The translations under genes were made by a program, and so were the position numbers. A stretch of 64,000 nt of DNA from an uncultured Schlesneria sp. (GTDB lineage Bacteria > Planctomycetota > Planctomycetia > Planctomycetales > Planctomycetaceae). Positions 1-14,792 of this stretch are shown in pieces. Within the stretch, counting starts at the first letter, position 1, and the number at the start of each line of letters is the position of its first letter. Below the pieces are notes generated by a model, which did no database searches, was not told the DNA's origin, and saw nothing but the letters and a program-made list of their open reading frames with translations. The stretch is taken from positions 62,001 through 126,000 of the forward strand of contig CAIVEI010000088.1 of NCBI GenBank assembly GCA_903904835.1. Direction: 5' to 3'.

Positions 1-1238
1 AGTGAGTCGACATGCTGGAATCGCGGTATTGAAGCGGCCAAGCGATGTTCCATCGATCGAATGCGGGTTGCCAATCGAACCAGCGCAGAACACTGCTTTT
101 GCCTTTCCGTTTTTTGGATTTCGTCCGAGGCGACAGCCGCGCTGGATTCGACGTCTAAAATCCAGTCGAGGTTTTTCACCGACTTTTCCGATAGCGATTC
201 CTGAAGGCGTTTCTCCACGTACGGAAGCAACAACGCAGCAGACGACAGTGCGCTGACCGCAGTTCCCTTCAAGTCACCGGAAACCAGGCTTGCCAGCCGG
301 GAAGCCCGTGACGTGGTGAGGAATTCCTCAGCCCGATGTTCAACCTGTCGCCATGCCTTTGGATCGCTATGCAAGTTGGCAATGACCGACTCGGATAATG
401 CTTCCAATGTCTCAAGAGGAAATTCCACCGGAAAGATCTGAGTCCCCTGCAACTGTACCAACGGGTTTTGGAGTTTCGTGTCAGCCGCGAATTTGCGAAT
501 CAGTAGAAATGTCGACAGTTGATCGATCGGTTGATCCAACCAGAATAAATAAGGTTTGACCGCTGGACGGACCGCCTCAGCCAGCATCATCCTCATAATG
601 GGAATGTCAGGCGACCCGGCAGGAATTGACGACAGGATTCGTAGCGAGTGGGCAATCGCCGGACCGGGTTCAAAATCATCTGGCCAGATTTTACTCAGGA
701 CCCAGTCTGGATTCCGCAGCATCAAGGCGAACGCTGCGACCTGTCCTCGACCCCAGTCATCAGGTCGTCCCCATTTTTCGATGATCTTCTTCGCCGCCGC
801 AGGAACCTCGTCCAACCGTTCAAGCAAAACGTCTTTATACCGCATCAATTCAAAGACGGGAAAATTGATCTGAGGACAAATCCGCCGCAGTACAGCGGGG
901 ACCGAGATATCAAAAGGAGCGCCCGCTTCGTTTGACGCGAGAATATCCGAAATGGTGGAGACGTCAATTCGTTTCTCTGAATCGGAATCGCGAGTAATGA
1001 CAATCAATACTTTTTGTTTTGCTTTCCAAGCCGCGCGATAAGTTTTTCGAAACGAAATATCGTCACCCCGAAACGTGACTAAACGCCATTCACGTCCGAC
1101 TTTGTCAACCAGTTTATCCTTTTCCAGCATGTCACCCACGGCCAGCAATCGATCGCCATCAACGGCAATCGCGGTCCGAACAGCATCAGGTCGCCCAGTA
1201 AGCCAGTCAAAGAACAAATCGGCCGGACGATGCGTCAT
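1..1238 (-). CDS. pglZ: PglZ-like protein, N-terminal part (cut by window edge)
   Basis: The frame opens at an ATG at 1238, preceded by an AGGA Shine-Dalgarno sequence, and runs to base 1 for about 412 codons without a stop, so the C-terminus is missing. The N-terminal part has the layout I associate with PglZ proteins: a short opening segment (MTHRPADLFFDWL), a strand with a DGDRLL motif, a stretch on FR-x-x-YR-x-x-W near residue 75, a hydrophobic strand (VLIVITRDSD), and then a helical region. PglZ proteins carry an alkaline-phosphatase-like domain further on, which would lie outside the window, so the metal ligands cannot be checked. The neighbours support the call: a BrxC/PglY-type ATPase and a DNA methyltransferase lie upstream on the same strand. 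PglZ is a core component of BREX and Pgl phage defence. The assignment rests on general pattern and context, so it is moderate. Confidence 0.55.
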   Translation of the reverse strand, partial: MTHRPADLFFDWLTGRPDAVRTAIAVDGDRLLAVGDMLEKDKLVDKVGREWRLVTFRGDDISFRKTYRAAWKAKQKVLIVITRDSDSEKRIDVSTISDILASNEAGAPFDISVPAVLRRICPQINFPVFELMRYKDVLLERLDEVPAAAKKIIEKWGRPDDWGRGQVAAFALMLRNPDWVLSKIWPDDFEPGPAIAHSLRILSSIPAGSPDIPIMRMMLAEAVRPAVKPYLFWLDQPIDQLSTFLLIRKFAADTKLQNPLVQLQGTQIFPVEFPLETLEALSESVIANLHSDPKAWRQVEHRAEEFLTTSRASRLASLVSGDLKGTAVSALSSAALLLPYVEKRLQESLSEKSVKNLDWILDVESSAAVASDEIQKTERQKQCSALVRLATRIRSMEHRLAASIPRFQHVDS

Positions 1239-1518: not shown

Positions 1519-2064
1519 TCACTGACCGTCGCGTACATACCCTATTGCCGCTGCCAGATCCGTTTCGTTGTCGAGCCAACGTCGGCTTCCTCGTTCGGTC
1601 CACCAGTTTTCTCGGATAGGTGGTTGGGATGATGACGACGAAACATTCGAAGACGAAGATAACGACGAAGATCCCTCGCTTGCGCGTCGGGCTAGCGTTT
1701 CATCTCTTCTCTTTCGTTCCAATTCTTTGAGTTTTCTGGTTCCCCATGCTTTGAATTGATCACGCACTTCTTTGGGGTCTCGATCGGATGAGACGACCAC
1801 GTGAACGTGGTTAGTGCGGCAGTTGACGGCGTGTAATTGCCATCTTCGAATCTTGCAATGATCGGCGATCGTTTTTTCGACCAGGCGGCGTTGTTCATCA
1901 TCGAGAATGCAGGCGTCTTCTGTCATGCGAGCCTGTGCCTCCAATTTAATGATCGGGTCCGGGAACTGAAATCCGATCCCATAATCGGACCAGCCCCGCT
2001 CGTCGCCAGGTAACCACGTTCCATAAGTTGTCCAAGTAAGCATAAACGCGACGGGATCAGCCAT
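1519..2064 (-). CDS. REP-associated tyrosine transposase (RAYT, Y1 family)
   Basis: A 181-aa protein if translation starts at the ATG at 2064; the 15 codons before it are poorly conserved in character. It has the Y1 single-strand transposase pattern: an N-terminal strand (FMLTWTTYGTWLPGD), a histidine pair in NHVHVVV that is the metal-binding HUH motif, and near the C-terminus AIGYVRDGQ, whose tyrosine is the likely nucleophile. Proteins of this family (RAYTs) act on palindromic REP elements rather than moving a full insertion sequence. The middle of the protein (TLARRASEG, then a serine-rich run) is encoded by a copy of repeat A at 1670-1695, so a dispersed repeat has landed in frame. The gene sits inside a defence cluster and breaks the run between the methyltransferase and PglZ-like genes. 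The two catalytic motifs are intact; activity is unknown. Confidence 0.8.
   Translation of the reverse strand: MADPVAFMLTWTTYGTWLPGDERGWSDYGIGFQFPDPIIKLEAQARMTEDACILDDEQRRLVEKTIADHCKIRRWQLHAVNCRTNHVHVVVSSDRDPKEVRDQFKAWGTRKLKELERKRRDETLARRASEGSSSLSSSSNVSSSSSQPPIRENWWTERGSRRWLDNETDLAAAIGYVRDGQ
1670..1695. repeat. Repeat A copy inside the RAYT gene
   Basis: A full copy of repeat A is read in frame within the transposase and encodes TLARRASEG. It is followed on the coding strand by a low-complexity serine-rich segment, which looks like inserted sequence between the HUH half and the tyrosine half. Confidence 0.85.
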
Positions 2065-2130
2065 GGGAGGTTCAAACGGTCGCGAATTCCGATCCCCAAA
2101 TTTCGACACGGAACATCTCCATCAAACCCC

Positions 2131-2340: not shown

Positions 2341-5232
2341 TTATTCAAAATCTAACAGGCTCTTTTTTTCGCGTTTTTTCTCGGTTTCTTCCTGGCGGAT
2401 GACTTGGGAAATCTGGTTCGACGCGGCGGAGTTTTGTTTCTGGGCTTTGGCATACACCTTGGACGGGACGTGGTCTCGCAGGACCGATTGGAACAATCTT
2501 GTGATCAACCGATATCCCTCGCCGAGATCGAAATCGCGGAGGGTTGGTGTCGCTTGCGTGTCTCCCTCTTCGACCTGGCGGCAGGCTTTGAACAGGACGT
2601 CGATCCAGTCGCAGCGTTCGGTGTCGGTGGTGTCTCGACGGAGCGTTCCGGCGATGTAACGGTCGGCGTCGTGCAGGACTCGGATCGAGCGGTCGTCGTT
2701 CATCCGTTCCCGTTCCGCGTCGGTCGGTTCTCGCCAGCGGTTGGTCTCGTCATCCCGCCAGAAATTCTCGGTCAGCAGTTCGTCGAGACTCAGGCTTTGC
2801 GAGACCTCGGCCGAGAGCAATCCGACCGCCCGCATCCAGAGCGGTTTCAGTTCCCCGATCAACATCGGTCGGACGCGAACTTTTTGTCTCAGCCAGTCGA
2901 TGGCACTGATATTGTCTTTGATGGCGACTTCTTCCTCGAACAGCCCGCCGCTGCCATTGCCGCCGACTGCTTCGCCTCGCAGATACCAACGTTGGCCGAT
3001 CTTGCGGAAATAGCGGGAACAGACACGTTCGATAAACGGCAGATTGAGTTGCTCAACGCTCACACCACGTGGGATCAGCGAGTTCATCAACATGCTGTTG
3101 ATCGTGGCGGTCGTACGGTGTTCGTCGCTGTATTTGTCGGGTTCGGCGAGGATACGTGCGGGGAGTGACAACAAATGTTCGCGAACGGCGTCACTTAATT
3201 GATGTTCGAGGTCGTGGTCAAACTGATCTGATTTGGCGCTGACCACCGCTGGCTTGTGGAGGTTGAATAGGACGTCCTTGTCGACAACGTCCTCGACGCC
3301 CTCGGCGCCTTTGACTTGCTTGAATGTTTTTTGTTCTTTGTCGAGTAGCAACATGTTGACGATTTCGAATCCGGCAGCACGAATGGCGTTTTTGATTGCT
3401 TCGAATACGGCGCCGTCAGAGTTGTTGAACTCGACAGTTGCCCATCGTCCTGGCTTAAGGACGCGAAATAATTCGACGAATGCGAGTTGCATCAAGCGAG
3501 CGTAGTCTGGCAATCGTTTCGTTCCGCCGTCGTTTTTTCGATGTACGACAGCTTCTTCGTCAGTGTCAGTTAATTTTCCGATCCACGCCTCCCACAAACG
3601 ATTGGGCTCAGAATAATAAATGTTCGATCCGAATGGTGGGTCCGTAAATACATAGTCAATGCTCTCGTCGGGCAATTCGACTGCGGACGCAGAACGGTTC
3701 GAGACAGCGACGTTTCCAGCGCCAAGCCCTCTGGCGGTTCCAAAGCCAAGATGTAATTGTTCGAATTTTCGCTCGAACACATCCCACACGTTTTTTTCCA
3801 ACGGGAAAGAAGACATATAGAGTTGACCGCTTAATCCGCCACCTCCGCTTCCCCATGCCTGCTTTTTCGTTATGTAAGACATGATCCCAGTAAGTCCAAA
3901 GTGAAGCACCTCGCGACAACGGGAGTCTGCAACAGCAACGGCCCTTTGCCATAAGGCTGCGTATGCCCACAGATTTCGGGGCGTCCAGAAATCCGTGACC
4001 AACTTGATATTACGAACCTGAAGTGCATTTCTTCGATATTGAGGGCCGTCTGTGTCCATCTCAACTTCCGGAACCCAATGTGGAATCTTCGAAGTCTCAA
4101 TTTCCCTCAGACGACCTCGTTCGCGAACGCTGATTGCACGTGAGATTCGTAATTGACGCGGCTCAGTTCCGCCCTTTATCGCGCGAATCCCATTTCCCAC
4201 AGTATTCACAACCACGGGTACGCTCCCGAGTCGCGGGAGTTGCATTTTTTTCCATTTCTCCGAGCAATTGGGGCACGCAAATAACTCTGAAACCTCGCCG
4301 GCGGAATCAACTGCCTCATGCCAAATAATGATTTCTTTCCCACACCCTCTAGGTACCCGCTTCCGTTGAACAATCGGTTTACCAGCATTCTTTCCACGAG
4401 TACTGATCTTGCCGGTTGGTTCTTCGAGTGTGACGAGTCCCTGACAACGATACACATCGGACCAAATCGTGTATTGAATCGTCGCCGGGATACAGATCCA
4501 TTCCTCCACCGTGCTCACGTCGACTTCGCCCCAGGTCTTGTCTCTCGGGAGTTCCGTCACCGGATAGCCGAGGCGGGTTTCGACCTCCGCTCGCGTCAGT
4601 AATTCCCACGTTCGTTCCATGCTGTCGAGCAACCGAGTCTTCGCCGCGTCCGAGGGCGGATTCTTGAGCCGGGCCGTGACGTCCGGGTTCTTCGCTGCGT
4701 ACAGGCCGATGGCAGGCTCGTAATGTTCGGTGCCGTACAGCCAGTCGAACTCCTCTTTCACCGCTGCTTTGATCCGCTCGAACTCGCTCCGCAATGCCTC
4801 AACGTCGACCGGCGTGTTGTAGTTGTAAGCGATATGACAGGCGGCGGGAGACAGGTCGTTCAGAATGCAGGCTCGGGGACCGACTCGGTCTTTCAGGTCG
4901 GGAAACTGAGCCAGCAGGTCCTCGGGCGGGTTGGCGCACATCTGTGCCGCCACCCCCGTCATCCCCGAACCACAGAAGGGATCGAGCACCACATCACCCG
5001 GTTTCGTGTAATGCAGGATGTACGGAATGATGCTGCGAGGAGGGACCTTGGTGTGATACGAATGAGCGTTATAAATCGGGTCGTTTTTTCCCTCTTTGAT
5101 GTCCTCGGCAAACGGCGGACGGTCGTAATCGTCCGTGACCGGATCGTAAGGGGTCACGTGTCGGGCCAGAAATTCGGCCAGGGCACGAGCCTGGTATTCG
5201 GGAGAAAGGTACGGTTGCAGATCAGAGGACAT
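2341..5232 (-). CDS. DNA amino-methyltransferase with inserted zinc ribbon (BREX/Pgl-like context)
   Basis: A 963-aa protein starting at the ATG at 5232; the frame stays open for 24 more codons upstream, but those only read through repeat A (RLRVGL), so the later start is preferred. Near residue 84 it has DPFCGSGMTG, the SAM-binding motif I, and near 531 DPPFGSNIYY, the catalytic motif IV of N6-adenine or N4-cytosine methyltransferases. About 440 residues separate them, including a Cys4 zinc-ribbon candidate (about C263, C297, C320, C323) that may be part of target recognition. Motif I before motif IV with a large insert fits the alpha group of amino-methyltransferases. The C-terminal third is helical and unrecognised. 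It is about the size of PglX-type enzymes, but I do not see the usual DUF1156 opening of type 3 BREX methylases. In this cluster it likely marks host DNA. The methyltransferase call is firm; subtype is open. Confidence 0.85.
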   Translation of the reverse strand: MSSDLQPYLSPEYQARALAEFLARHVTPYDPVTDDYDRPPFAEDIKEGKNDPIYNAHSYHTKVPPRSIIPYILHYTKPGDVVLDPFCGSGMTGVAAQMCANPPEDLLAQFPDLKDRVGPRACILNDLSPAACHIAYNYNTPVDVEALRSEFERIKAAVKEEFDWLYGTEHYEPAIGLYAAKNPDVTARLKNPPSDAAKTRLLDSMERTWELLTRAEVETRLGYPVTELPRDKTWGEVDVSTVEEWICIPATIQYTIWSDVYRCQGLVTLEEPTGKISTRGKNAGKPIVQRKRVPRGCGKEIIIWHEAVDSAGEVSELFACPNCSEKWKKMQLPRLGSVPVVVNTVGNGIRAIKGGTEPRQLRISRAISVRERGRLREIETSKIPHWVPEVEMDTDGPQYRRNALQVRNIKLVTDFWTPRNLWAYAALWQRAVAVADSRCREVLHFGLTGIMSYITKKQAWGSGGGGLSGQLYMSSFPLEKNVWDVFERKFEQLHLGFGTARGLGAGNVAVSNRSASAVELPDESIDYVFTDPPFGSNIYYSEPNRLWEAWIGKLTDTDEEAVVHRKNDGGTKRLPDYARLMQLAFVELFRVLKPGRWATVEFNNSDGAVFEAIKNAIRAAGFEIVNMLLLDKEQKTFKQVKGAEGVEDVVDKDVLFNLHKPAVVSAKSDQFDHDLEHQLSDAVREHLLSLPARILAEPDKYSDEHRTTATINSMLMNSLIPRGVSVEQLNLPFIERVCSRYFRKIGQRWYLRGEAVGGNGSGGLFEEEVAIKDNISAIDWLRQKVRVRPMLIGELKPLWMRAVGLLSAEVSQSLSLDELLTENFWRDDETNRWREPTDAERERMNDDRSIRVLHDADRYIAGTLRRDTTDTERCDWIDVLFKACRQVEEGDTQATPTLRDFDLGEGYRLITRLFQSVLRDHVPSKVYAKAQKQNSAASNQISQVIRQEETEKKREKKSLLDFE

Positions 5233-5244
5233 AATTTCTCTCGT

Positions 5245-5555
5245 TAGCCCGACGCGCAAGCGAGGGATCTTGGTTTTTATGTGTTTGCATTTCCCGACGC
5301 GCAAGCGAGGGATCTTGGTTTTCGTATTTTGTATTCGGTATTCTGTTTTGATGTTTTTTAAGACACGCTCGATTTGATGTTTTTTTCATGCCCGTATTGA
5401 TGGTTTTTTGGTACTGGCGTTTTTTGGTTTATTATGTCGTTACCGGTTCGTCCCTCGCTTGCGCGTCGGGCTGAGGTTCGGCACTTTTTGTGGTCGCGGG
5501 TTTTCGTGTTTTATTATGTCGGTTCCGGTTTGTCCCTCGCTTGCGCGTCGGGCTA
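5245..5555. repeat. Repeat A cluster (four copies) between methyltransferase and ATPase
   Basis: Copies lie at 5245-5269 and 5293-5314 (direct pair, 45-base spacing) and at 5450-5472 and 5532-5555 (opposite orientation). The second pair is embedded in a longer direct repeat of about 43 bases that starts TTATTATGTCG at 5430 and 5511. The first pair lies 13 to 82 bases upstream of the methyltransferase ATG. The sequence between the pairs is T-rich on the plus strand and contains no convincing gene. Confidence 0.85.
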
Positions 5556-5575
5556 ACGTTTGGGCTAACGTGGGA

Positions 5576-8500
5576 TCATCTCAGGAATATTCTTACTTTT
5601 TTGCTTTTGCCGTGCTGGGCTTTGGCTTCTTTCACCGCCTTGCGTAACAAGCGAGCGAATAACTCGACGGCTTCGTCGATGTGGTCTTCTTCAATCGCTC
5701 CCACTTCCTGCACGATCGGGATCAATGAGACCTCTTCCTGCACCAGATTTTCGTCGTATAACAGTTTTCTGAGGAATTCGACCAGTTCGTCGGTCAGGGC
5801 CGTCGACAGCGATTCCAGCTTCGATAACTGGATAATTTCCATCAGCGATTTCAAATCGGCACGGCCATTTTCTTCTGCCGCTTTTTTCAGAATCGCGCCA
5901 ATCGTTGCGTCCTTGAATCGCTGAAACCGATCGGCCAAACCCGTCGACACGAGTTGTTTGAGTTTCCCAACCTCGGTTGTCGGGACCTGCATTTCTGGCG
6001 TCCAGCCGCATTTCTTACAGGTTGCCGACGTGGTCGCATCCGCCTCCAACGCGTCCGCACACAGATCCAGTCGTTTGTCGATTGCTGCCAGATCCGATTC
6101 GACGGACAGCGTTGCCGCTTGCGGCGGACCGAGTTCCTCAATCGAGTTCATTCTCTGTAACGCTTTAACCTGCGGTCGTAATTCGTCGACTTCCGATTCC
6201 AGCTTTTCCAGTTGCTCGTAATAGGCCCGATGGGCCTTCCTGTATGCGTGGACATACTTGGACTTCCACTTTTCAAAATCATCAAGGCGTGCTTGGATGA
6301 TCGTGGGATTCTTGAGCAAATTATCGAACGCCAGAAGCGTAATCAGTCCATTCCGATCGAATTCCAATGGTTTATCGATGTCGCAGGCATCGGCCAGGTA
6401 ATCACGTGCGTTACTCAGATCAAACGCTTTGTCACTGAGTTGCCGTCCCTTGCTGAATTGATCGTACGCCGCTTTGAATTCCTCAGTTGTGGGATAACTT
6501 TCGCGAACAGCCGCATCGAATTCTTGAAACGACGCCGTCGATGCAATGGCTTTCAATCGTTGAATAGTTTCGGTCAACGGTTTCGGGACCGAACCGTTGA
6601 GTTTCGCGCTCAGTGCCCCCAGATGCTTTTCCACATTGGGAAGTTCGCTATTCAGTTTGCCCAGGACGGCGAGAAATTCGGTGTTACGCTCCGGTTCTTC
6701 GTCCGGCGTCGCTGCGGTCTTCAGCGTGTCATCAAGCACTCGGGTAAACGGTGCGACTTCGTTCCACCCCTTCTGGATCGACACGACGATCCGGGCGCCG
6801 AGCAACGCTCTGTCGAGTTTGGCGTTCCATTCACACTGCGCGAGTGCATGGGTGGTCAATCGATTTTTCGACAGCACAATCTGGTCGAGCAACGTGATCT
6901 GATTGGCCGTATTCAACGCCAATTCATAGCCACCGCATTTGACGAGCGAGCAGACATACAGGACGACCATCCCTTCGGTCAGTCCATAGGGGGCTGAGCA
7001 AAGGGTTGTTTTGAGTTCGGCGAGCGGAACATCCGTGCGTGGGCCGATCAGTTCACGCAGTTTTTTCAATGCCTGTGATGAATCGGGTTTGAAGTCGTTC
7101 GGATGGGATTTGACGGTCAATTCCAGACCGACTCCGAAATTCATGACGGCATCTTTTTCCGCCTTTGACGCGTCCTTGCGAAACAGGCCCGCAAACATCT
7201 TCTTCGCGTCGTTTTCAGTGAATTCTTTTTTCAAATCCTTGGGGCTGAAGAGGGGCGCGTCGTAGGCTTTTTCGATCAACCGCCCGGCGAGATCGGCTTC
7301 CCGTTCGCGCGAGACCTTGAAGATTTCTTTTGCGGGGATGCCATATCCCTTTTGAGTCAGGACTTTGCCCCGTCGGAATTCGTCCAGTTGGCATTTCAGG
7401 ATCGCTTTGACCGCCTCCCGGCGTTTGTTTTCGGCGTATTCCCGCAACCCCGTTTGATTCGGGCCTGTGGAACTTCGTTTGAGGTTTTCGGCAGCGATCA
7501 GTTCGGCCAATGCTTCGCGCGTCTCATCAGATAGAGAATCGGGACGACAGACAGCGACGCGGACATCGGCCAGCGCCGATGTGATTTCGGTATCTGGTAC
7601 TTCCGGTTTTGTGGTCAGATAAACGAGCCGGAAATGTTGATCGGAATGCTTGATCATTTCACCGAATTCTGACCGCCAGTGATCGGCGATCAGGACTTCA
7701 CCGCCATACTGTGTGCTGTAGATTTTTCGAGTAGAACTGGCCGTTTTTTTCGGGAACTGATACTGCGCGGGGTTCCCCAGCGTTTTGTCCTGCGTCGTCC
7801 GCTGATCGTCCGGCGCGAAGTCGGACAGGATTCCACCGTCGACGCCAAGTTCCTGTTGAGCTTCTTTATTTATGTCACCCAGTTGCCAGAATAGCGACTC
7901 AATCCATTTTCCATTCTGTTTGACGAGGTCTTCCTTGGCCTTCTTTTTGAGTGGCGCGAAAAGTTTGCCGGGATTCTCTTGGGCGACGCTGGTCTCGTAG
8001 GAATAGACGGCAACTTCTTTTCCGTCTCGCACTTTCTTGTTGACTCGAACGGGATACCCATTCTGGACAAGCCGGTTCAACAGGTGTTCGGCCTGCGCGT
8101 TGGCGCCCAGGGCGTCGTCCATCAGCCAGGCGGCTTCGGCAACCTCCTGCGCCATCAGGCCATCTCGCAGATTGTCTGGCAGACACATGGCCCAGAGAAA
8201 CAAGGTTTCCAGTACACGGCGTGCCTGCTCAAGTTCTTCGGGTGAACCATCAAGATCTCTAAGTTGTTCGATCGACGTTAACAGTCCTTGAAATTCTTCC
8301 CGATAGACTTCGTGATTCATCCCCTTGACGAGTTCGGTCGTGCGGATGATATCGGACAATGTGATCAGCTGCTTTTCTTTCAGACGCCCCTTACTTTTGA
8401 GGGTTTCCCAGCCGATGCGGATGGCTGAACGGGCCGTCGGAAGATTGTGCTTTTCGTAGTTTTGCGTAATACGGCGCATGACTTCAAAAGTGCGCGGCTG

Positions 8501-9610
8501 AAACGGGAAGATCGCCGTGAAGTATTCGATCGAGATATTGCCCTGCTTGATAAAGCGATATTCTTTACGGCAATAGTCGTAATAGTCCTTGATATCGGTA
8601 TTGGCACCCGCCTTCAGGTCTCGGCAACGGAAAGCAACGATCTCGCCGAAATCACTCTTGTTTTTGTCCGCCAGCAGATAAAGCGGCATGAAGCGATCAC
8701 CCTGACCACCTCCCGACAATTTCTGTGGCATGTCCCCCTGGCTGGCGATGATCGTGACGATATTGAGGTGGTTCGTGGGGAGGACGAACGCCAGTGTTTC
8801 GAGGATCTCTTCGTCCTCGGCATAAGCGGTTGATCCTTCGAGATGGCGATCCTGCCAGGATTTGAATTCATCGATGACGAAGATCAGGCCGTCGTACTTG
8901 CCCAGCGTCGTGATCTGTTCGTAAATGAACTTGAATCGTTCTTTGAATTTTCCTTTGAGGCGGCTTCCTTCAAGGATTCCTGACTTCACCAGTTCTTGAC
9001 CGAATTTCTTGGGACTATTTTTGGCCCGAAAATCTTCCGGGGAACAGTGATGTTCTTTCTCGAAGAATGCAGCCACGGCGGGACGAAGTACTGAAGCTAC
9101 GTCGTTGGTATACCAGTCATCTGCGAGTTCCGCCGACGTCAGCTTGATTTGTTTTGATAGGCCGGGATCATGCTCTTCGAGACTGATCCGAATTTGTTCC
9201 TCAAAAATCCGCATCAAGCTGTCGTTGCCATCCGAATCGCCAAGACCGCGCAATGAGAATGCGATGGGGAACATTCGGCGTTTCGCCAACGGGTCATCGT
9301 ATTCTATCTTGAGTTCGGCATCTTCAAGACTCTTCCACACCCCCTGTTCTCGCCACATCAGCAGATTGATCAAGACCGCCAGAAAATGGGTTTTGCCTGC
9401 GCCATATTCGGCTTGAACCCAGAATCCCTGTCCCTTCTGATGAACGACACATTCGAACACGCGTTTGACGTGATCGCGAAGGGCCGGGGTCATGTAATAC
9501 TGAGCGACGCACGCTTCCGCATTGTCACGCAAAATGGATTGCGACAGGGAAGGTGTCGTTTGCGGCTCGGGTTTGACATCAATCAGACGGGAAAGCTCAC
9601 GCAAAGCCAT
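5576..9610 (-). CDS. brxC: Large P-loop ATPase, BrxC/PglY type
   Basis: A 1344-aa protein with AAGGAAT as ribosome-binding site, starting 9 bases after the stop of the 154-aa gene. Walker A is GAGKTH at residues 70-75 and Walker B is LIFVIDEF at about 243-249. The opening segment (MALRELSRLIDVKPEP, then a YYMTPALRDH box) and the large size match the DUF6079/BrxC/PglY group of BREX and Pgl systems, which couple ATP hydrolysis to assembly of the defence complex. The remaining ~1000 residues are mainly helical, with charged, possibly coiled-coil stretches around 1080-1150, and a CKKCG knuckle near the C-terminus that could bind zinc. A DUF499-type ATPase is an alternative, since both families keep company with methyltransferases; the PglZ-like neighbour favours BrxC. 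The ATPase call is firm and the family call is good. Confidence 0.75.
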   Translation of the reverse strand: MALRELSRLIDVKPEPQTTPSLSQSILRDNAEACVAQYYMTPALRDHVKRVFECVVHQKGQGFWVQAEYGAGKTHFLAVLINLLMWREQGVWKSLEDAELKIEYDDPLAKRRMFPIAFSLRGLGDSDGNDSLMRIFEEQIRISLEEHDPGLSKQIKLTSAELADDWYTNDVASVLRPAVAAFFEKEHHCSPEDFRAKNSPKKFGQELVKSGILEGSRLKGKFKERFKFIYEQITTLGKYDGLIFVIDEFKSWQDRHLEGSTAYAEDEEILETLAFVLPTNHLNIVTIIASQGDMPQKLSGGGQGDRFMPLYLLADKNKSDFGEIVAFRCRDLKAGANTDIKDYYDYCRKEYRFIKQGNISIEYFTAIFPFQPRTFEVMRRITQNYEKHNLPTARSAIRIGWETLKSKGRLKEKQLITLSDIIRTTELVKGMNHEVYREEFQGLLTSIEQLRDLDGSPEELEQARRVLETLFLWAMCLPDNLRDGLMAQEVAEAAWLMDDALGANAQAEHLLNRLVQNGYPVRVNKKVRDGKEVAVYSYETSVAQENPGKLFAPLKKKAKEDLVKQNGKWIESLFWQLGDINKEAQQELGVDGGILSDFAPDDQRTTQDKTLGNPAQYQFPKKTASSTRKIYSTQYGGEVLIADHWRSEFGEMIKHSDQHFRLVYLTTKPEVPDTEITSALADVRVAVCRPDSLSDETREALAELIAAENLKRSSTGPNQTGLREYAENKRREAVKAILKCQLDEFRRGKVLTQKGYGIPAKEIFKVSREREADLAGRLIEKAYDAPLFSPKDLKKEFTENDAKKMFAGLFRKDASKAEKDAVMNFGVGLELTVKSHPNDFKPDSSQALKKLRELIGPRTDVPLAELKTTLCSAPYGLTEGMVVLYVCSLVKCGGYELALNTANQITLLDQIVLSKNRLTTHALAQCEWNAKLDRALLGARIVVSIQKGWNEVAPFTRVLDDTLKTAATPDEEPERNTEFLAVLGKLNSELPNVEKHLGALSAKLNGSVPKPLTETIQRLKAIASTASFQEFDAAVRESYPTTEEFKAAYDQFSKGRQLSDKAFDLSNARDYLADACDIDKPLEFDRNGLITLLAFDNLLKNPTIIQARLDDFEKWKSKYVHAYRKAHRAYYEQLEKLESEVDELRPQVKALQRMNSIEELGPPQAATLSVESDLAAIDKRLDLCADALEADATTSATCKKCGWTPEMQVPTTEVGKLKQLVSTGLADRFQRFKDATIGAILKKAAEENGRADLKSLMEIIQLSKLESLSTALTDELVEFLRKLLYDENLVQEEVSLIPIVQEVGAIEEDHIDEAVELFARLLRKAVKEAKAQHGKSKKVRIFLR

Positions 9611-9619
9611 CGGGATTCC

Positions 9620-10084
9620 TTACGCACCAAACTGTCGCTTGATCAAAGAAGAATTGTCACTGAAGTAGTCAACAAGTTGATTCGGATGACATTCGACGTC
9701 TTCCGGCCAGGCAAAATCAGGGCAGACCGCTTCGATGACCAGAAACGCCATCGAAAAATCGTCACAAAACCAATCGTAAAATTCGCGGACTCCAACCCCA
9801 TAGCGAGCCAGAAGCGCCGCCGACAAGACGATCAGAATTGTCCGTCGTCCTTGTTCACGTGGCAGTTTCTGTAAGTATTTACGAATTGCAGTCCGCAACA
9901 AAAGTCGAATGTCGTCATCGTCCTTTGGGACATCGCCATCCAGAAGGTCCAGTAGGTCGATGGTGGTTGCGGTGATGCCGTTTAACTTTGCGCGAAGTGT
10001 CGGCTCGGAACCGATCCAAAGGTTCAGTTCCTTGTCCCACGCTCGTTGGCTTAACAGTTGAGTCAGTTCATCGATTTCGGGCAT
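9620..10084 (-). CDS. Unknown 154-aa protein at the head of the BREX-like cluster
   Basis: The start codon lies 3 bases after the stop of the preceding gene and its own stop lies 9 bases before the ATPase start, so the three are almost certainly one transcript. The protein is acidic and soluble, with no signal peptide or membrane segment. Its most recognisable part is a hydrophobic strand (RTILIVLSAALLARYG) followed by VREFYDWFCDD and a further strand (AFLVIEAV). By place and size it corresponds to the small component (BrxF) ahead of brxC in type 3 BREX, but BrxF as I know it has a P-loop and none is visible here. I therefore do not assign a function beyond a probable structural or regulatory role in the defence complex. 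Confidence 0.7.
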   Translation of the reverse strand: MPEIDELTQLLSQRAWDKELNLWIGSEPTLRAKLNGITATTIDLLDLLDGDVPKDDDDIRLLLRTAIRKYLQKLPREQGRRTILIVLSAALLARYGVGVREFYDWFCDDFSMAFLVIEAVCPDFAWPEDVECHPNQLVDYFSDNSSLIKRQFGA

Positions 10085-10087
10085 GAG

Positions 10088-10933
10088 TTACAGTCTCGGC
10101 TGGTTGGAAAGAAATTCGTCCAGACCCCAGCGCGTGGTGATCTGTTCCAACTGATCGGCGACGACATATTTTCCCAAAAATCCGGCCGCGTCGGCCTCGC
10201 GAAACACGGTACGCACGTCGTCCTCGGATTTGTACCCAAGATACTTCCAGAAAGGATTGGCGAAAAGCCGCTTCAATTCAATGGTCCGTGGCCCGTTGGG
10301 GGCGAACAAATGATGTGTCAGGATCAACAAAGAAGTTTTTTCCGCAGCAATCGGCATCAAGAAATGGTCGTGCTCAGCGGAAGCTTCCAGGAAACCCAGT
10401 TTGACCAGATTTGCTTTAAGCCGTTGTCCGGTCTTCTTCAGGGGTGTCTCCGCGTAACAACTCGCAAGAAATCGATCGAACAGGCTAATGGGAATTCGCA
10501 TTCCAATTTCGATGGGGAACAGACAGTCTGCAACGCAAGCGCCTGCGATCGTTTCGTTTGACAGGTACAGGTATCGAAGAATATCCAGCGTAATCCGACC
10601 ATCCTGGTATGCAACCCAAGTCTTGCGTGCTATTCCATTCAGCCCATCGGAAAAAAAACGCCGGATGATAAACCGGGCGCTCTGAACTCGGGTTTCGGCG
10701 CTATTTTGAGGCAGATCCTTCGAGAGTCTGTCGCGAAGCTCAGCCAGGCTGTTGCACGCGGCGGATTGCTTGATGGCGAAAATGGTGTCCGGTACGGAAA
10801 GCTCGTAGAGATTCCGACTGATTTTAGAGATTTTCTTAGCGTCGCTCGCGCTTGTTCCCGCAGCTTCGGTTGGCAGTTCTTGCGTGCTATGTTCGTCGTC
10901 ATCAAACAGGGTTGGCTCGTTCTTCTTCGTCAT
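10088..10933 (-). CDS. BrxA-like (DUF1819-like) candidate, first gene of the cluster
   Basis: A 281-aa protein from the ATG at 10933, with a GTG one codon earlier as alternative. The first ~40 residues are acidic and low in complexity (FDDDEHSTQELPTEAAGTS). The middle resembles the plan of BrxA/DUF1819 proteins: an arginine-rich helix (TRVQSARFIIRRFF), a helix around ILRYLYLSNETIAG, and a basic helix before a short winged segment (RLKANLVKLGFLEAS). The C-terminal third (FWKYLGYKSEDDVRTVFREA, then GKYVVADQLEQ) looks like an extra domain not found in the ~200-aa BrxA. BrxA proteins are small helical DNA-binding proteins of BREX. The similarity is a judgement by eye and weak. The gene leads the operon, 3 bases upstream of the 154-aa gene. 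Confidence 0.5.
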   Translation of the reverse strand: MTKKNEPTLFDDDEHSTQELPTEAAGTSASDAKKISKISRNLYELSVPDTIFAIKQSAACNSLAELRDRLSKDLPQNSAETRVQSARFIIRRFFSDGLNGIARKTWVAYQDGRITLDILRYLYLSNETIAGACVADCLFPIEIGMRIPISLFDRFLASCYAETPLKKTGQRLKANLVKLGFLEASAEHDHFLMPIAAEKTSLLILTHHLFAPNGPRTIELKRLFANPFWKYLGYKSEDDVRTVFREADAAGFLGKYVVADQLEQITTRWGLDEFLSNQPRL

Positions 10934-10936
10934 CAC

Positions 10937-11930
10937 GTCGAAAAATCCGTTAAAGTCTGCTCTCTATCATCGCCTGGCGGGCAATTTCTAGAGGTTATCC
11001 TGCGTCCCAAAAAAATGCAGCTATCGGGGTTTGGTTTCCGTTTAAATGGTACTCGACAGCGTTCAAAGAATCTCTGTAGACGTCGTGAGTCAAATTCAAA
11101 GGGCGGGTTTACAACGCCCCCCACGTCAGCCCGATGCACAAGGGACGGATCGCCGCCGAGGAACACCACGGCGCCCAACTCGGCAATCGAGCCACTGGTT
11201 TTGCTATGGTTCAGACAGTCATCCGTATCGGTCTACGTTCGTCCCGCGCTTGCGCGTCGGGCTAGCGAACGAAGAAAATGCGCTATGAACCGAAAAGCCG
11301 GTTTGGCTGGCTCTCTTTTTCCATTTCGCATACATCGGAGCATTGGTATCGGAGCCGAGAATCGAGATTTTTAGAACTGATTCGGCTTCGATCCGAAACT
11401 TCTCATCCGCCTTCCAAACGTTAAGAACGCATTTCTGTTTTTCTATTGACTGCCGTTATTTACTTTTGTATTTTTATGTCGCGGCTATATTGGCGAAGGC
11501 GGAGCGATCAGCCAGGGTTCGTCATGAAGCACAGTTTTAAGCATCGGTTTGAGGCCGTCCGCTTTGGTTCGGACGGCCGCTTGCCTGCACTCGCTGTTGT
11601 TTGAAACGGGTGGCGCCGAAGCGGCGAGAGCGTAGCTGCCGAAGCGGTGGAAAGTAAGTTTGTGAAAGTAGTGAGTAGACAAGACAAGAATTTTTTGGCG
11701 GATATTCCAGCGAATGAAGGGTGAAAAGTGGCGAAGTCAGTCGAAGTCAGGCGAACTCAGGTGAACTTTGTTGCGACGGAAAGATAACGAAAAGCCTATG
11801 ATTTATGGGAAATGGTCGAAGTCGCGCGAACTCGGGTGAACTTTTCAATCACAACTCGGGGCGTCGAACAAAAGCCGGACAGCCACCTCGAAACTCGGAG
11901 CCAGTCCCGGTTTTATTCGCCTGAACCGGA
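10937..11930. other. Gene-free stretch with degenerate repeat A copies and a direct repeat
   Basis: No convincing gene in nearly 1 kb. It contains a degenerate repeat A copy at 11128-11151, a nearly intact one at 11240-11265, and an imperfect 29-base direct repeat (11741-11769 and 11816-11844, 26 of 29 identical) built on the words CGAACTC and GTGAACTTT. The part next to 10936 should contain the promoter of the minus-strand defence operon, but I cannot point to convincing promoter boxes. It marks the right border of the defence cluster. Confidence 0.6.
11128..11265. repeat. Repeat A, two outlying copies
   Basis: A degenerate copy (core CGATGCACAAGGGACGGA) at 11128-11151 and a copy with one change in the inverse orientation at 11240-11265. 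They are the last copies seen; none was found from 11.3 kb to the end of the window. Confidence 0.7.
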
Positions 11931-12380
11931 CTAACCTAAAAATTCTCGCTCGTAGTGTGAGATCTTATCGACTCGTCGTTCGTGCCGGCCTCCTTCGAAC
12001 GGTGTATCGATCCAGGTTTGGATCATGCGGGGCATGGAGGCTGTCGCGATCAGGTCTACAGAAAGACAGAGAATATTCGCGTTGTTGTGGCTACGACTGA
12101 TTTGTGCCGAAAGGACGTCATGACAAAGGGCCGCGCGAATTCCTCGGATTTTGTTGGCGACGATCGTCATCCCGATTCCGGTACCACCGATAAGGATCGC
12201 TCGGTCGACCTCGCCGCTGGCGACGGCTCGGGCTGCCTTCGCTGCATAGTCAGGGTAGTCGCACATTTCGTCGGTCGATGGACCGAAATCCAATCCCTCA
12301 TGATGAAGCTCACGCACGAGAGAAAGGATCTTATCTTTGGCCTTGAAGCCTCGGTGTTCGCTGGCGACGGCAATTTTCAT
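11931..12380 (-). CDS. rpiB: RpiB/LacAB-family sugar-phosphate isomerase
   Basis: A 149-aa protein from the ATG at 12380; an upstream in-frame start at 12446 would add 22 residues that are not part of the family. The family converts ribose 5-phosphate and ribulose 5-phosphate in the pentose phosphate pathway, or related six-carbon sugar phosphates. Visible motifs are SEHRGF at the N-terminus (usually SDHAG), the phosphate-binding loop GTGIGM, RGIRAALCHD, the SRSHNNAN segment with the conserved His and Asn, and the C-terminal FEGGRHERR arginines. The cysteine that precedes GTGIGM in the E. coli type enzymes is a glycine here (ILIGGTGIG). The actinobacterial type also lacks that cysteine but uses a glutamate elsewhere, so the enzyme may be active on another sugar or by another base. 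It stands alone. Confidence 0.85.
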   Translation of the reverse strand: MKIAVASEHRGFKAKDKILSLVRELHHEGLDFGPSTDEMCDYPDYAAKAARAVASGEVDRAILIGGTGIGMTIVANKIRGIRAALCHDVLSAQISRSHNNANILCLSVDLIATASMPRMIQTWIDTPFEGGRHERRVDKISHYEREFLG

Positions 12381-12538
12381 GATTCGAGTAGACCACAGTT
12401 TCGATTGACTTGGAAGATCATTACACTTTCGGATAACCGAAATCATATTTCTTTCCGGGATTGGCTGACAGTCCAGTCGGAGGTCTGTGATGGAACGACG
12501 AACATTTAATATCCCAGTGAAGTTTCACCTCAGACAAC

Positions 12539-12823
12539 GTAGCCATCATCGCTCCGAGGCTGTCAGTTTTTGTAAGTTAAGAATGGTGAGCCACACCCCG
12601 TCGCATGGGCTTCAGCCCGTGCGACACAACATCTTGTGCGGGCTAAAGCCCACACTACAAAAACTGACAGCCTTTCCGCGTGATGAGCATTGTTCGAGAA
12701 CCTGCTAAATTCCAAACTGCATGTGCTTAAAAAAGGAATTCAAACGGAATGTCTGTCGCGATGCTGCAGCAACGTTTGAATCGTTTTCGACGCATGCTCA
12801 TCACGCGGAGCGATGATGGCTAC
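12539..12823. repeat. Nested inverted-repeat element (MITE-like) carrying a BIME
   Basis: A 17-base perfect inverted repeat bounds the element (12539-12555 and 12807-12823). Inside it, 12560-12574 pairs perfectly with 12656-12670 and 12678-12691 pairs with 12794-12807. The inner loop 12600-12658 is a BIME-type REP pair whose halves are hairpins around GGGCTTCAGCCC and GGGCTAAAGCCC. No protein is encoded. It lies between rpiB and the beta-helix gene, in a gene-free stretch from 12381 to 13133. Confidence 0.75.
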
Positions 12824-13133
12824 TTTGAAAGAAACCCTGGGACTTGACTCAATGAGTCAAGTTTCAGCCCCGAAGTCGTCTCAAGACGGTATTCCCTCGT
12901 TTTCGCCAAAGCATTGCTAAATGAACGCTGTATTTTTGAGTCGATTATTCGTAGTGACATCGATTGATTTCTTCGCGTGCCGCGAAGATTTTTCACGGGA
13001 GCCGAGCCGCGACATCAGTACACGCATCGACTATGCGGCTCTGCCGAAGCCTCCCGCTCCGATTGCCATTGGGTTGCGGGCGAATTCCGCGTCTGGTTCA
13101 TCTCATGTTCTCCGCAAGAGGTTAATAATCGCG

Positions 13134-14792
13134 ATGAGACTTACTTTTCTGATTCTCATTGTTGCTTCATTCGCTCTCCCCGTTCTTGGCGATGATTTCG
13201 CCAGGCTGGAAGCAATTCTCGCGCAGTCGCGTCAACATGGAGGAGTCATCACGATTCCGCCCGGCGACTACGAACTGGATGGTCAGAAGCCACTGCCGAT
13301 CACGTCACATCTGACCATCAACGCCTATGGTGCTCGGTTTCATTTTCCGAAAACACTCGGTGATAAGGCACGTGTCGTACTGTTCTCGGGGGAAAACATC
13401 AGCGACTTACGCTGGTTTGGCGGACACTTCTCAGGGCACGTCTTCGATCCGGCCAAGGTGGATAATTCGTGGGAACCGAATTCCAATTCGCGAGGTATCT
13501 TGATTTCGACAACGGCTGGCGGACGAACGGAAAACCTGACGTTTCGCGACGTCACTTCCGACGGACTTTCTGGTGCTGTCATCACAGTATCTGGCGCTGC
13601 AAAGAAGGGGAGCGACCGTGAAATTGAAACCTACGCGCGTAACGTCACCATCCAAAATTGCACGCTTGAACGAAGTGGCAAGTTCATGTGGGACTACGGT
13701 TACCTGTGGCAGATCACTGTCTGGCCCGAGGACTACAGCGACGCAGAACGAGCGATGGCGGCGAAATATTTTCGGAACGACCTTGTACGCGGACCGGTTC
13801 GGATGGATTCGGGCGATGATCGAGTGCAGTTCAAGAACAATCCGCCACTGCTGGTTTCGCAAAAGCGAGAGGCGTCTGAGGCCGAGCGAGGGAATGATGC
13901 GGTCTGCTTCTACGGAGATACGTTGCCGTCTAACATCGTCCGTGGAAAACGCTACTTCGTCATCGAGAGCAAGCCGGATTTCCTGCGCATTGCCGAGTCG
14001 CCAGGTGGTGAGGCGATCCGATTTGCCAGTTCAGCCGGACCTCAAACGCGACTGATCAGCAATTTGTTCGAGGCGTTTTATGGTCTGTATGCCCCGACGG
14101 GCAGCGGCCCAGGAAAGGGGGCATTCGACCTTGTTGGTTGTGAGAAGGTCGTCGTCCATGGCTGCCATTTAAGTGCCCTTGGTGACACAATGCACATTCA
14201 AAAGAGTCGAGGTGTGATCTTCGCCGACAATCACATCACCGGTTCGAGGATGGGTGCATTTTTCCTGGCGGAGTTCTGCAAGGACGCAATGATTACGGGC
14301 AACGTCGTGGATGGAACCAATGGTTCACGCATTGTCAGCGTCGAAAAATCGACTGAGGACGTGACCATCACCGGCAACACCTTTCGCAATGGAGGTCGAG
14401 GCTCGTGGATCAACCAGCCTCGCAACTTCATTCTGGCCGACAATGTCTTTGTGAACAACACCACGAAGTGCGAACGGGACTCGCGTCGCGGGCGTCGCCA
14501 TTTCGCCGACGGTGACTACGAACATTACGCCGAAGTGTACTTTACGACGCACGAGCCTGGCGGACGATACGGCGACGTGACGATTCGAGGAAACATTTTC
14601 ACCTCAGGCCCCAACGCCGAACACGCGATCAAGTTCGCACCAGGGGGTGATACGATTGTCGTCACGGACAATATTTTTCGTGGCCCCGTTCGCGAGATCA
14701 CTCAAGGCCCGGGATGTGACAATGTCATCATTCGGGACAACGTTGGGTCGGTGGATCACCCCGACCGGCTGAAAGAGATCAATTCTCGGTGA
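13134..14792 (+). CDS. Secreted right-handed beta-helix protein
   Basis: A 552-aa protein. The ATG at 13134 is chosen because it begins a clear signal peptide (MRLTFLILIVASFALPVLG); an open frame back to 12921 adds 71 residues with no such character. After the signal peptide comes a short pectate-lyase-like entry (VITIPPGDYELDG), then repeated strands of the parallel beta-helix type (NVTIQNCTLERSG, VVVHGCHLSALGD, AMITGNVVDGTNG, DVTITGNTFRNGG, FILADNVFVNN, DVTIRGNIFTSG, NVIIRDNVGS). Such proteins are often polysaccharide lyases or epimerases, but I see no catalytic signature to choose one. It probably acts outside the cytoplasm on a polysaccharide. It ends tail to tail with the PEP-CTERM gene. 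Confidence 0.85.
   Translation: MRLTFLILIVASFALPVLGDDFARLEAILAQSRQHGGVITIPPGDYELDGQKPLPITSHLTINAYGARFHFPKTLGDKARVVLFSGENISDLRWFGGHFSGHVFDPAKVDNSWEPNSNSRGILISTTAGGRTENLTFRDVTSDGLSGAVITVSGAAKKGSDREIETYARNVTIQNCTLERSGKFMWDYGYLWQITVWPEDYSDAERAMAAKYFRNDLVRGPVRMDSGDDRVQFKNNPPLLVSQKREASEAERGNDAVCFYGDTLPSNIVRGKRYFVIESKPDFLRIAESPGGEAIRFASSAGPQTRLISNLFEAFYGLYAPTGSGPGKGAFDLVGCEKVVVHGCHLSALGDTMHIQKSRGVIFADNHITGSRMGAFFLAEFCKDAMITGNVVDGTNGSRIVSVEKSTEDVTITGNTFRNGGRGSWINQPRNFILADNVFVNNTTKCERDSRRGRRHFADGDYEHYAEVYFTTHEPGGRYGDVTIRGNIFTSGPNAEHAIKFAPGGDTIVVTDNIFRGPVREITQGPGCDNVIIRDNVGSVDHPDRLKEINSR

Follow-up and report, generated by a model that had tools for sequence, protein, structure and literature searches.

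What do the first two genes of a BREX-like operon encode when neither is recognised by the family collections? The question is raised by the window, by which we mean the whole stretch of 64,000 nt analysed here (positions 62,001-126,000 of contig CAIVEI010000088.1, from an uncultured Schlesneria sp.). In its region 9,620-10,933 lie two small genes, h1 and h2, which a preliminary description had put forward as possible new components of a BREX-like complex. The coordinates bear out its account of a 281-aa and a 154-aa gene that are 3 bases apart (10085-10087), with 9 bases (9611-9619) between the second and the ATPase ORF. The features discussed below are the following:

10088..10933, minus strand: h1, 281 aa from its ATG (282 aa from a GTG one codon upstream), with a helical N-terminal part, a low-confidence middle part and a predicted C-terminal winged helix at about 198-278; a putative divergent BrxA-like DNA-binding protein
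9620..10084, minus strand: h2, 154 aa, a probable BrxF/BrxB-like inactive STAND protein with a predicted AAA+/ORC-like fold and no Walker A
5576..9610, minus strand: BrxC-like AAA+ ATPase, 1344 aa (PADLOC BrxC 3.6e-7, DUF6079 7.5e-9)
2341..5232, minus strand: BrxXI/PglXI-type DNA methyltransferase (PADLOC PglXI 1.6e-149)
1519..2109, minus strand: Y1 (IS200-like) transposase gene between the methyltransferase and PglZ (PF01797 5e-4, slightly below the cut-off)
1..1238, minus strand: N-terminal part of PglZ, with its ATG at 1238 (PF08665 1.5e-9)
G000:C88:58980-60461, wholly outside the window: BrxL, 493 aa (1.2e-111)
1263-1358, 1456-1489, 1666-1699, 2121-2177, 2300-2345, 5242-5337, 5445-5563 and 11236-11269, both orientations: repeat around CCCGACGCGCAAGCGAGGGA

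A PglZ and a BrxC in one operon mark the BREX superfamily, and both are found here (PF08665 at 1.5e-9 and PADLOC BrxC at 3.6e-7). The order is h1, h2, BrxC, BrxXI-type methyltransferase, (Y1 transposase), PglZ and BrxL, and the operon runs beyond the window edge, where the remainder of PglZ, 925 aa in full, is located at G000:C88:60461-62000. The sequences contain the motifs AEYGAGKT and IFVIDE in BrxC, DPFCGSG and DPPF in the methyltransferase, DGMR and SDHG in PglZ and GPRETGKT in BrxL, which has no Lon domain in this operon and has one in the IMG/VR contig L010. ORFs of up to 222 aa called mechanically on the plus strand overlap the h1/h2 region. Judging from conservation, it is the minus-strand ORFs that are genes and not chance frames, since a Myxococcota metagenome-assembled genome (MAG) has counterparts of both, in unchanged order, before a homologous ATPase.

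The Y1 transposase is taken as an insertion in the operon and not as a part of BREX. Copies of the repeat around CCCGACGCGCAAGCGAGGGA occur in the gaps between BREX genes, in either orientation, and one falls within the transposase ORF; translated, the repeat reads PRLRVGLT, and it seems to be the source of false N-terminal extensions of the methyltransferase and PglZ ORFs. For the methyltransferase, the ATG at 5232 is a likelier start than that of the called ORF at 5304, because the first 24 codons of the latter overlap the repeat.

A pattern scan for the ATPase across species genomes, which detects close relatives only, returned two loci of the one Myxococcota MAG (L008 and L009). In both, h1 (26–28% identity; tblastn E 1e-29 to 1e-31, with six loci as the search set) and h2 (24–26% identity; E about 9e-7) immediately precede BrxC, which is followed by a methyltransferase gene that the contig end truncates in L008. 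L009 continues with a protein carrying RNA polymerase alpha-CTD and sigma-region-4 domains, followed by PglZ and the contig end. On a plasmid of Halorarius halobius the order is methyltransferase, 'BrxA family protein', a 173-aa gene, BrxC and PglZ, and in L010 it is h1 homologue, a 174-aa gene, methyltransferase, DUF7662 protein, BrxC, PglZ and BrxL. The h1 and h2 genes are therefore neighbours in all five loci, including the window, and stand directly ahead of BrxC in four of them; the two MAG loci are near-copies, so that the five represent four lineages. PglZ was seen with the pair and BrxC in the window, in Halorarius, in IMG/VR and in one of the two Myxococcota loci. The pair thus accompanies a related BrxC in five of five loci, and the earlier proposal that h1 and h2 belong to the BREX-like system holds.

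Elsewhere, no ORF of at least 90 aa in 21 other loci (10 stretches, 7 viral contigs, L014, L015, L053 and L054) matched the h1 or h2 profile at E<=1. BrxC is matched at 1e-3 in 16 of these and a Type-1 BrxA is matched instead in eight; L092 and L099 end less than 300 bases ahead of BrxC and L014 is a remnant. All four members that were found are rows of the h1/h2 profiles and match by construction. One of the 21 loci, L015 (from G081), contains a 2033-aa BrxC-like frame (7678-13776; DUF6079 6.1e-28), and neither profile matches within the 20 kb examined there.

By itself h1 matches no family in PADLOC or Pfam up to E 10 and none in NCBIfam. Its relationship emerges through one intermediate, the Halorarius 'BrxA family protein', which matches PF08849 BrxA at 2.5e-5 (24.6 bits vs a cut-off of 23). 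Compared by hhalign, the h1 profile (rows from the window, two from Myxococcota and one from IMG/VR) aligns with this protein at 94% and E 9.5e-8 over 219 columns, a level reached by none of 100 shuffles (best shuffle 1.6%); identity between the two proteins is 15%. Conversely, a profile of the IMG/VR and Halorarius rows only retrieves the window h1 at 2.7e-6 among 268 ORFs (next ORF 2.6), and a profile of all four relatives without the window row retrieves it at E 6.2e-31 (next of the 268, 1.1). Against Type-1 BrxA, hhalign gave h1 30% with the Halorarius row and <1% without it, and the Halorarius BrxA alone reached only 2%; there was no signal between h1 and Type-3 BrxA, nor between Type-1 and Type-3 BrxA. 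As pairs of known families are also without signal, small hhalign profiles are weak tools here and a missing match tells little. On these alignments h1 is a divergent BrxA, homologous over most of its length. The preliminary description had spoken of a 'BrxA-like middle', in which the likeness to BrxA was right and the extent too narrow, as the alignment to the Halorarius protein reaches about residue 274.

The same description had left h1 with an unexplained C-terminal domain. The structure model of h1 is of low confidence overall (mean pLDDT 50.8) and poor for residues 1-200, while residues 198-278, approximately, form a predicted winged helix (block mean pLDDT 62–86 over 201-280, earlier blocks at most 52). 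The best three Foldseek matches are SspB (E 0.02–0.03), and VIA also places SspB first (Z 8.2, rmsd 3.0, 92 residues), with other winged-helix chains tied within 1; 4 of the 50 VIA matches listed put residues 124-196, approximately, on DasR, GntR or MCM chains, in a part where the model is poor. Solved BrxA entries are absent among the 50 Foldseek or VIA matches listed for this poor model, and PDB sequence searches with three-row profiles of h1 and h2 gave chance matches only (best E 0.67 and 0.93). For a BrxA structure, SspB was reported as the first DALI match after BrxA itself (PMC9240713), and Type-3 BrxA and DUF4007 are described as tripartite helix-turn-helix (HTH)/winged-helix proteins (PMC12839542). 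The supposedly unexplained domain is then a predicted winged helix, of the kind described for those two, with SspB as its best fold match.

In its core operon position, its 219 columns alignable to a PF08849 member and its predicted C-terminal winged helix with an SspB-like match, as reported for BrxA (PMC9240713, PMC12839542), h1 resembles BrxA (PF08849, DUF1819), from which it differs in having no direct Pfam, PADLOC or NCBIfam match. SspB/DUF4007 of phosphorothioate systems provides its best structural match, over 92 residues by VIA, but no sulfur-modification gene is present among the window operon genes examined.

Winged helices are also found in many repressors, and h1 is the first gene of the operon. 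We therefore considered that the two genes might regulate the operon, as a winged-helix repressor with a partner protein, and take no part in the complex; PMC12839542 leaves room for a regulatory role of BrxA. This is improbable given that h1 resembles BrxA across 219 columns, given the core slot and gene order, and given that an AAA+-like protein and BrxC are conserved alongside it. Moreover, BrxR, the BREX regulator described in PMC9122589, is a WYL protein, that is, of a different kind.

The smaller gene, h2, was rightly called unrecognised: it matches no family in PADLOC or Pfam up to E 10, and its one NCBIfam row (E 0.14) is a chance match. The same lack of a recognised family holds for h1. 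The AF2 model of h2 (pLDDT 71.5, pTM 0.65) has strands at 19-24, 39-43, 83-87, 112-117 and 136-141 that alternate with helices, in a predicted AAA+/ORC-like fold. The best Foldseek match is an ORC chain (E 2.3e-3), with none at or below 0.001 and TM <0.5 in the matches listed; nearly all of the 50 listed are ORC, RFC, Cdc6, Vps4 and other AAA+/STAND ATPases. By VIA the best match has a Z of 8.5 over 127 residues, near the level that VIA rates as middling. The protein has no Walker A (no G-x4-GK-S/T). BrxB and BrxF are described as ORC/DnaA-clade folds, BrxB having no Walker motifs, and loss of Walker A is reported for BrxB and variability for BrxF (PMC10164562, PMC12839542).

Sequence links between h2 and BrxF run through intermediates. 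The h2 of L010 matches NCBIfam BrxF (NF033453) at 5.8e-4, below the curated cut-off, and that of Halorarius matches PADLOC BrxF at 1.8e-3. One Myxococcota h2 weakly matches PglW (E 0.026) near its C-terminus, where the Type-2 iSTAND is placed (PMC12839542). By hhalign, the h2 rows align with the IMG/VR and Halorarius pair at 37% (E 3.5e-4, 112 columns, a level reached by 0 of 100 shuffles); the two in turn align with seven BrxF at 88.6% (E 2.7e-6, again 0 of 100 shuffles). Directly, h2 against BrxF gave 2%, with 2 of 100 shuffles as high, a three-row h2 profile was likewise without signal against BrxF, and in HMMER searches of the 268 ORFs neither the BrxF profile nor that of the two intermediates retrieved h2. 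The four-relative h2 profile without the window row ranks h2 first of the 268, at an E of only 0.24 (next 0.5). Against Type-1 BrxB, h2 gave no hhalign signal, and BrxF against BrxB gave none either. The BrxF set comprised seven of nine sequences, the nine being two genome matches over the cut-off and seven plasmid records; left out were an Aeromonas row, whose start is unclear, and a second E. faecium record with the same match, and four genome matches under the cut-off were also outside the set.

In its small size, its position directly ahead of BrxC and its predicted AAA+/ORC-like fold, h2 is like the BrxF of Type 3 (NF033453) and the BrxB of Type 1 (DUF1788). It differs from BrxF in having no Walker A, whereas a GKT/GKS motif is kept in five of the seven BrxF rows used, and from both in that its sequence link passes through intermediates only. 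Taken together, the chain of intermediates, the fold and the position make a divergent inactive STAND protein of the BrxF/BrxB kind the most likely identity of h2. Profile matches of the pair to BrxA and BrxF were obtained in part, for h1 via one intermediate and for h2 via intermediates with the fold and position, and neither protein gave a direct match.

An alternative for h2 only, with h1 still BrxA-like, is a different, lineage-specific adaptor, inhibitor or regulator that has an AAA+-like fold and does not descend from BrxF/BrxB. It would account for the lack of a direct sequence link to BrxF or BrxB, and the middling h2 model fits it as well, a Z of 7–8 being typical of the best match for models without a clear one. 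We consider this reading unlikely, if by some way the most credible of those that we set against our own, since genes in the same slot match BrxF models and align to BrxF above all 100 shuffles, and h2 fills the slot ahead of brxC in which brxF or brxB sits. Without h2 the operon would also miss a BrxB/BrxF-type part that is described as kept across all BREX subtypes, with a figure of 64% for Type 4 (PMC12839542).

The same missing family matches could be read as a sign that h1 and h2 are both new components, with no counterpart in other BREX systems, as first suggested. The statistically strong link of h1 to BrxA largely refutes this for h1, for which the label of new component was wrong, and the fold, intermediates and position of h2 make it unlikely for a protein that is most probably a divergent BrxF/BrxB; as a statement about the pair we find it barely credible.

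We therefore regard it as probable that h1 serves as BrxA and h2 as BrxF/BrxB in a BREX system whose lineage lies outside the Types tested. Homology would assign DNA binding to h1 and the joining of BrxC with PglZ to h2. From what is described for other BREX types, h1 may bind DNA through helix-turn-helix and winged-helix modules and help to bring the complex to target DNA, while h2, which would lack conventional ATP binding, may dock on PglZ and on the AAA+ domain at the N-terminus of BrxC and relay the state of BrxC. The methyltransferase would mark host sites, and on unmarked phage DNA the complex might shift from methylation to restriction by PglZ, as nuclease, and BrxL, as MCM-like helicase. 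In Type 1, BrxB was reported to bind PglZ, a metal-dependent nuclease, and to leave its nuclease activity unchanged (PMC12205998), which counts against a stronger form of the BrxC-PglZ link proposed for h2. Type-1 BrxC is also reported to form a complex with BrxB-PglZ, and its self-association and DNA binding appear to be under the control of BrxA and BrxB (PMC13326643).

The operon itself is more unusual than the h1-h2 pair. In a BrxC tree of 17 rows (lineage 5, Type 1 2, Type 2 5, Type 3 5), the five rows of the window lineage group together at 94/94, apart from Types 1, 2 and 3, and are weakly sister to Type 3 (85/87, with a midpoint root and long branches). The Type-2 BrxC labels derive from PADLOC/NCBIfam matches, the NCBIfam ones being below the curated cut-off, and the trees hold no rows of Types 4, 5 or 6. 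In the methyltransferase tree, four lineage rows group at 97/99 beside four Type-3 BrxXI, and lineage and Type 3 together are split from two Type-1 PglX by a 100/100 branch. The PglZ tree gives no resolution (55/59).

Compared with Type 3 (BrxF, BrxC, BrxXI, BrxHII, PglZ, BrxA), the window operon is similar in its BrxXI-type methyltransferase, its BrxF-like protein and the weak sister position of its BrxC. It differs in having no BrxHII helicase among the genes examined, and in carrying a BrxL, a BrxA-like gene at the head and a BrxC outside the five Type-3 rows. BrxHII is reported in 77% of Type-3 taxa, so that its absence alone does not exclude Type 3, and BrxL, present in both the window operon and L010, is reported as entirely absent from Type 3 (PMC12839542). 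With Type 1 the operon shares BrxL and the core gene order, brxA-brxB-brxC-pglX-pglZ-brxL being the order of two Type-1 plasmid operons, in which other genes are interspersed; however, its methyltransferase is BrxXI-like and not PglX, and its BrxC is apart from the two Type-1 rows. Type 2, marked by a PglY-type ATPase and PglW, is set apart by a BrxC outside the five Type-2-labelled rows and by the lack of PglW among the operon genes examined, and Type 4, for which there is no BrxC in the trees, by having PAPS reductase/DUF4007 in place of the methyltransferase found here. The titles and abstract openings of the BREX literature searched contain no report of BrxXI together with BrxL; PMC9716671 names BrxL and pglXI, the latter, in the part of that text available, only within a list of genes sought.

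The window operon is on these comparisons a candidate subtype, a rare BREX lineage that mixes parts of described types. We judge it evenly poised whether it amounts to an undescribed subtype that has its own BrxC clade, occurs in bacteria and a haloarchaeon, and unites a pair like BrxA and BrxF with BrxC, PglZ and a Type-3-like methyltransferase, together with BrxL in two lineages. If it does, BREX can join its BrxF/BrxXI half to its BrxL half, and BrxB/BrxF can shed nearly all recognisable sequence and still remain in the core. The less expected result is the candidate lineage itself, with its Type-3-like parts beside BrxL. It offers a natural mosaic for asking if BrxL replaces the BrxHII helicase next to a Type-3-type methyltransferase. 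Pfam, PADLOC and NCBIfam miss h1 and h2, so that such operons appear to be without BrxA and BrxB, and recognising the two for what they are lends support to the published view that every BREX system has BrxA- and BrxB-like parts.

This lineage looks rare in the collections searched. The h1 sequence alone, searched against 294 genomes of the window's phylum, returned its own gene and two weak matches (E 0.004 and 0.007). The better of these (L016) was taken as chance: its surroundings contain no BrxC, methyltransferase, PglZ or BrxL at E 1e-3 and no match to the h1 profile. The other (L005) was searched within its 3.2 kb only. In 235 genomes of the MAG's phylum the h1 profile found that MAG only. 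A pattern scan of viral contigs with the h1 profile found none, and evidently misses relatives, as the h1 homologue of L010, from the same collection, went unfound; a scan of viral contigs with the Halorarius BrxC also gave nothing. The BrxC sequence alone was found in 3 of 392 genomes and in 1 of 72,556 plasmid records. With the five-row BrxC profile, 16 of 207 and 20 of 197 genomes had matches, which beyond the profile rows themselves (the window gene and the MAG's two) were partial and below 60 bits; full-profile matches came only from the window genome among the 207 and from the MAG among the 197. Plasmid loci of Pseudarthrobacter and Hymenobacter with similar methyltransferases were dropped, as there was no BREX-annotated gene in the stretch shown.

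Fragments of such an operon, for which the head genes h1 and h2 were not found, occur in G061, a second genome of the window's phylum (L014:8163-10590): a methyltransferase piece at 82% over 79 aa, a BrxL piece at 63% over 155 aa and a C-terminal piece of BrxC. Some relatives carry additional parts. The BrxA-like h1 homologue at L010:4660-5886 has a possible extra N-terminal UPF0758_N (E 8.3e-6, just below the cut-off), and the DUF7662 protein ahead of BrxC at L010:8944-9750 matches in two stretches. The ORF between the methyltransferase and PglZ at L009:13052-15856 encodes 934 aa, with alpha-CTD matches in three stretches and a sigma region 4.
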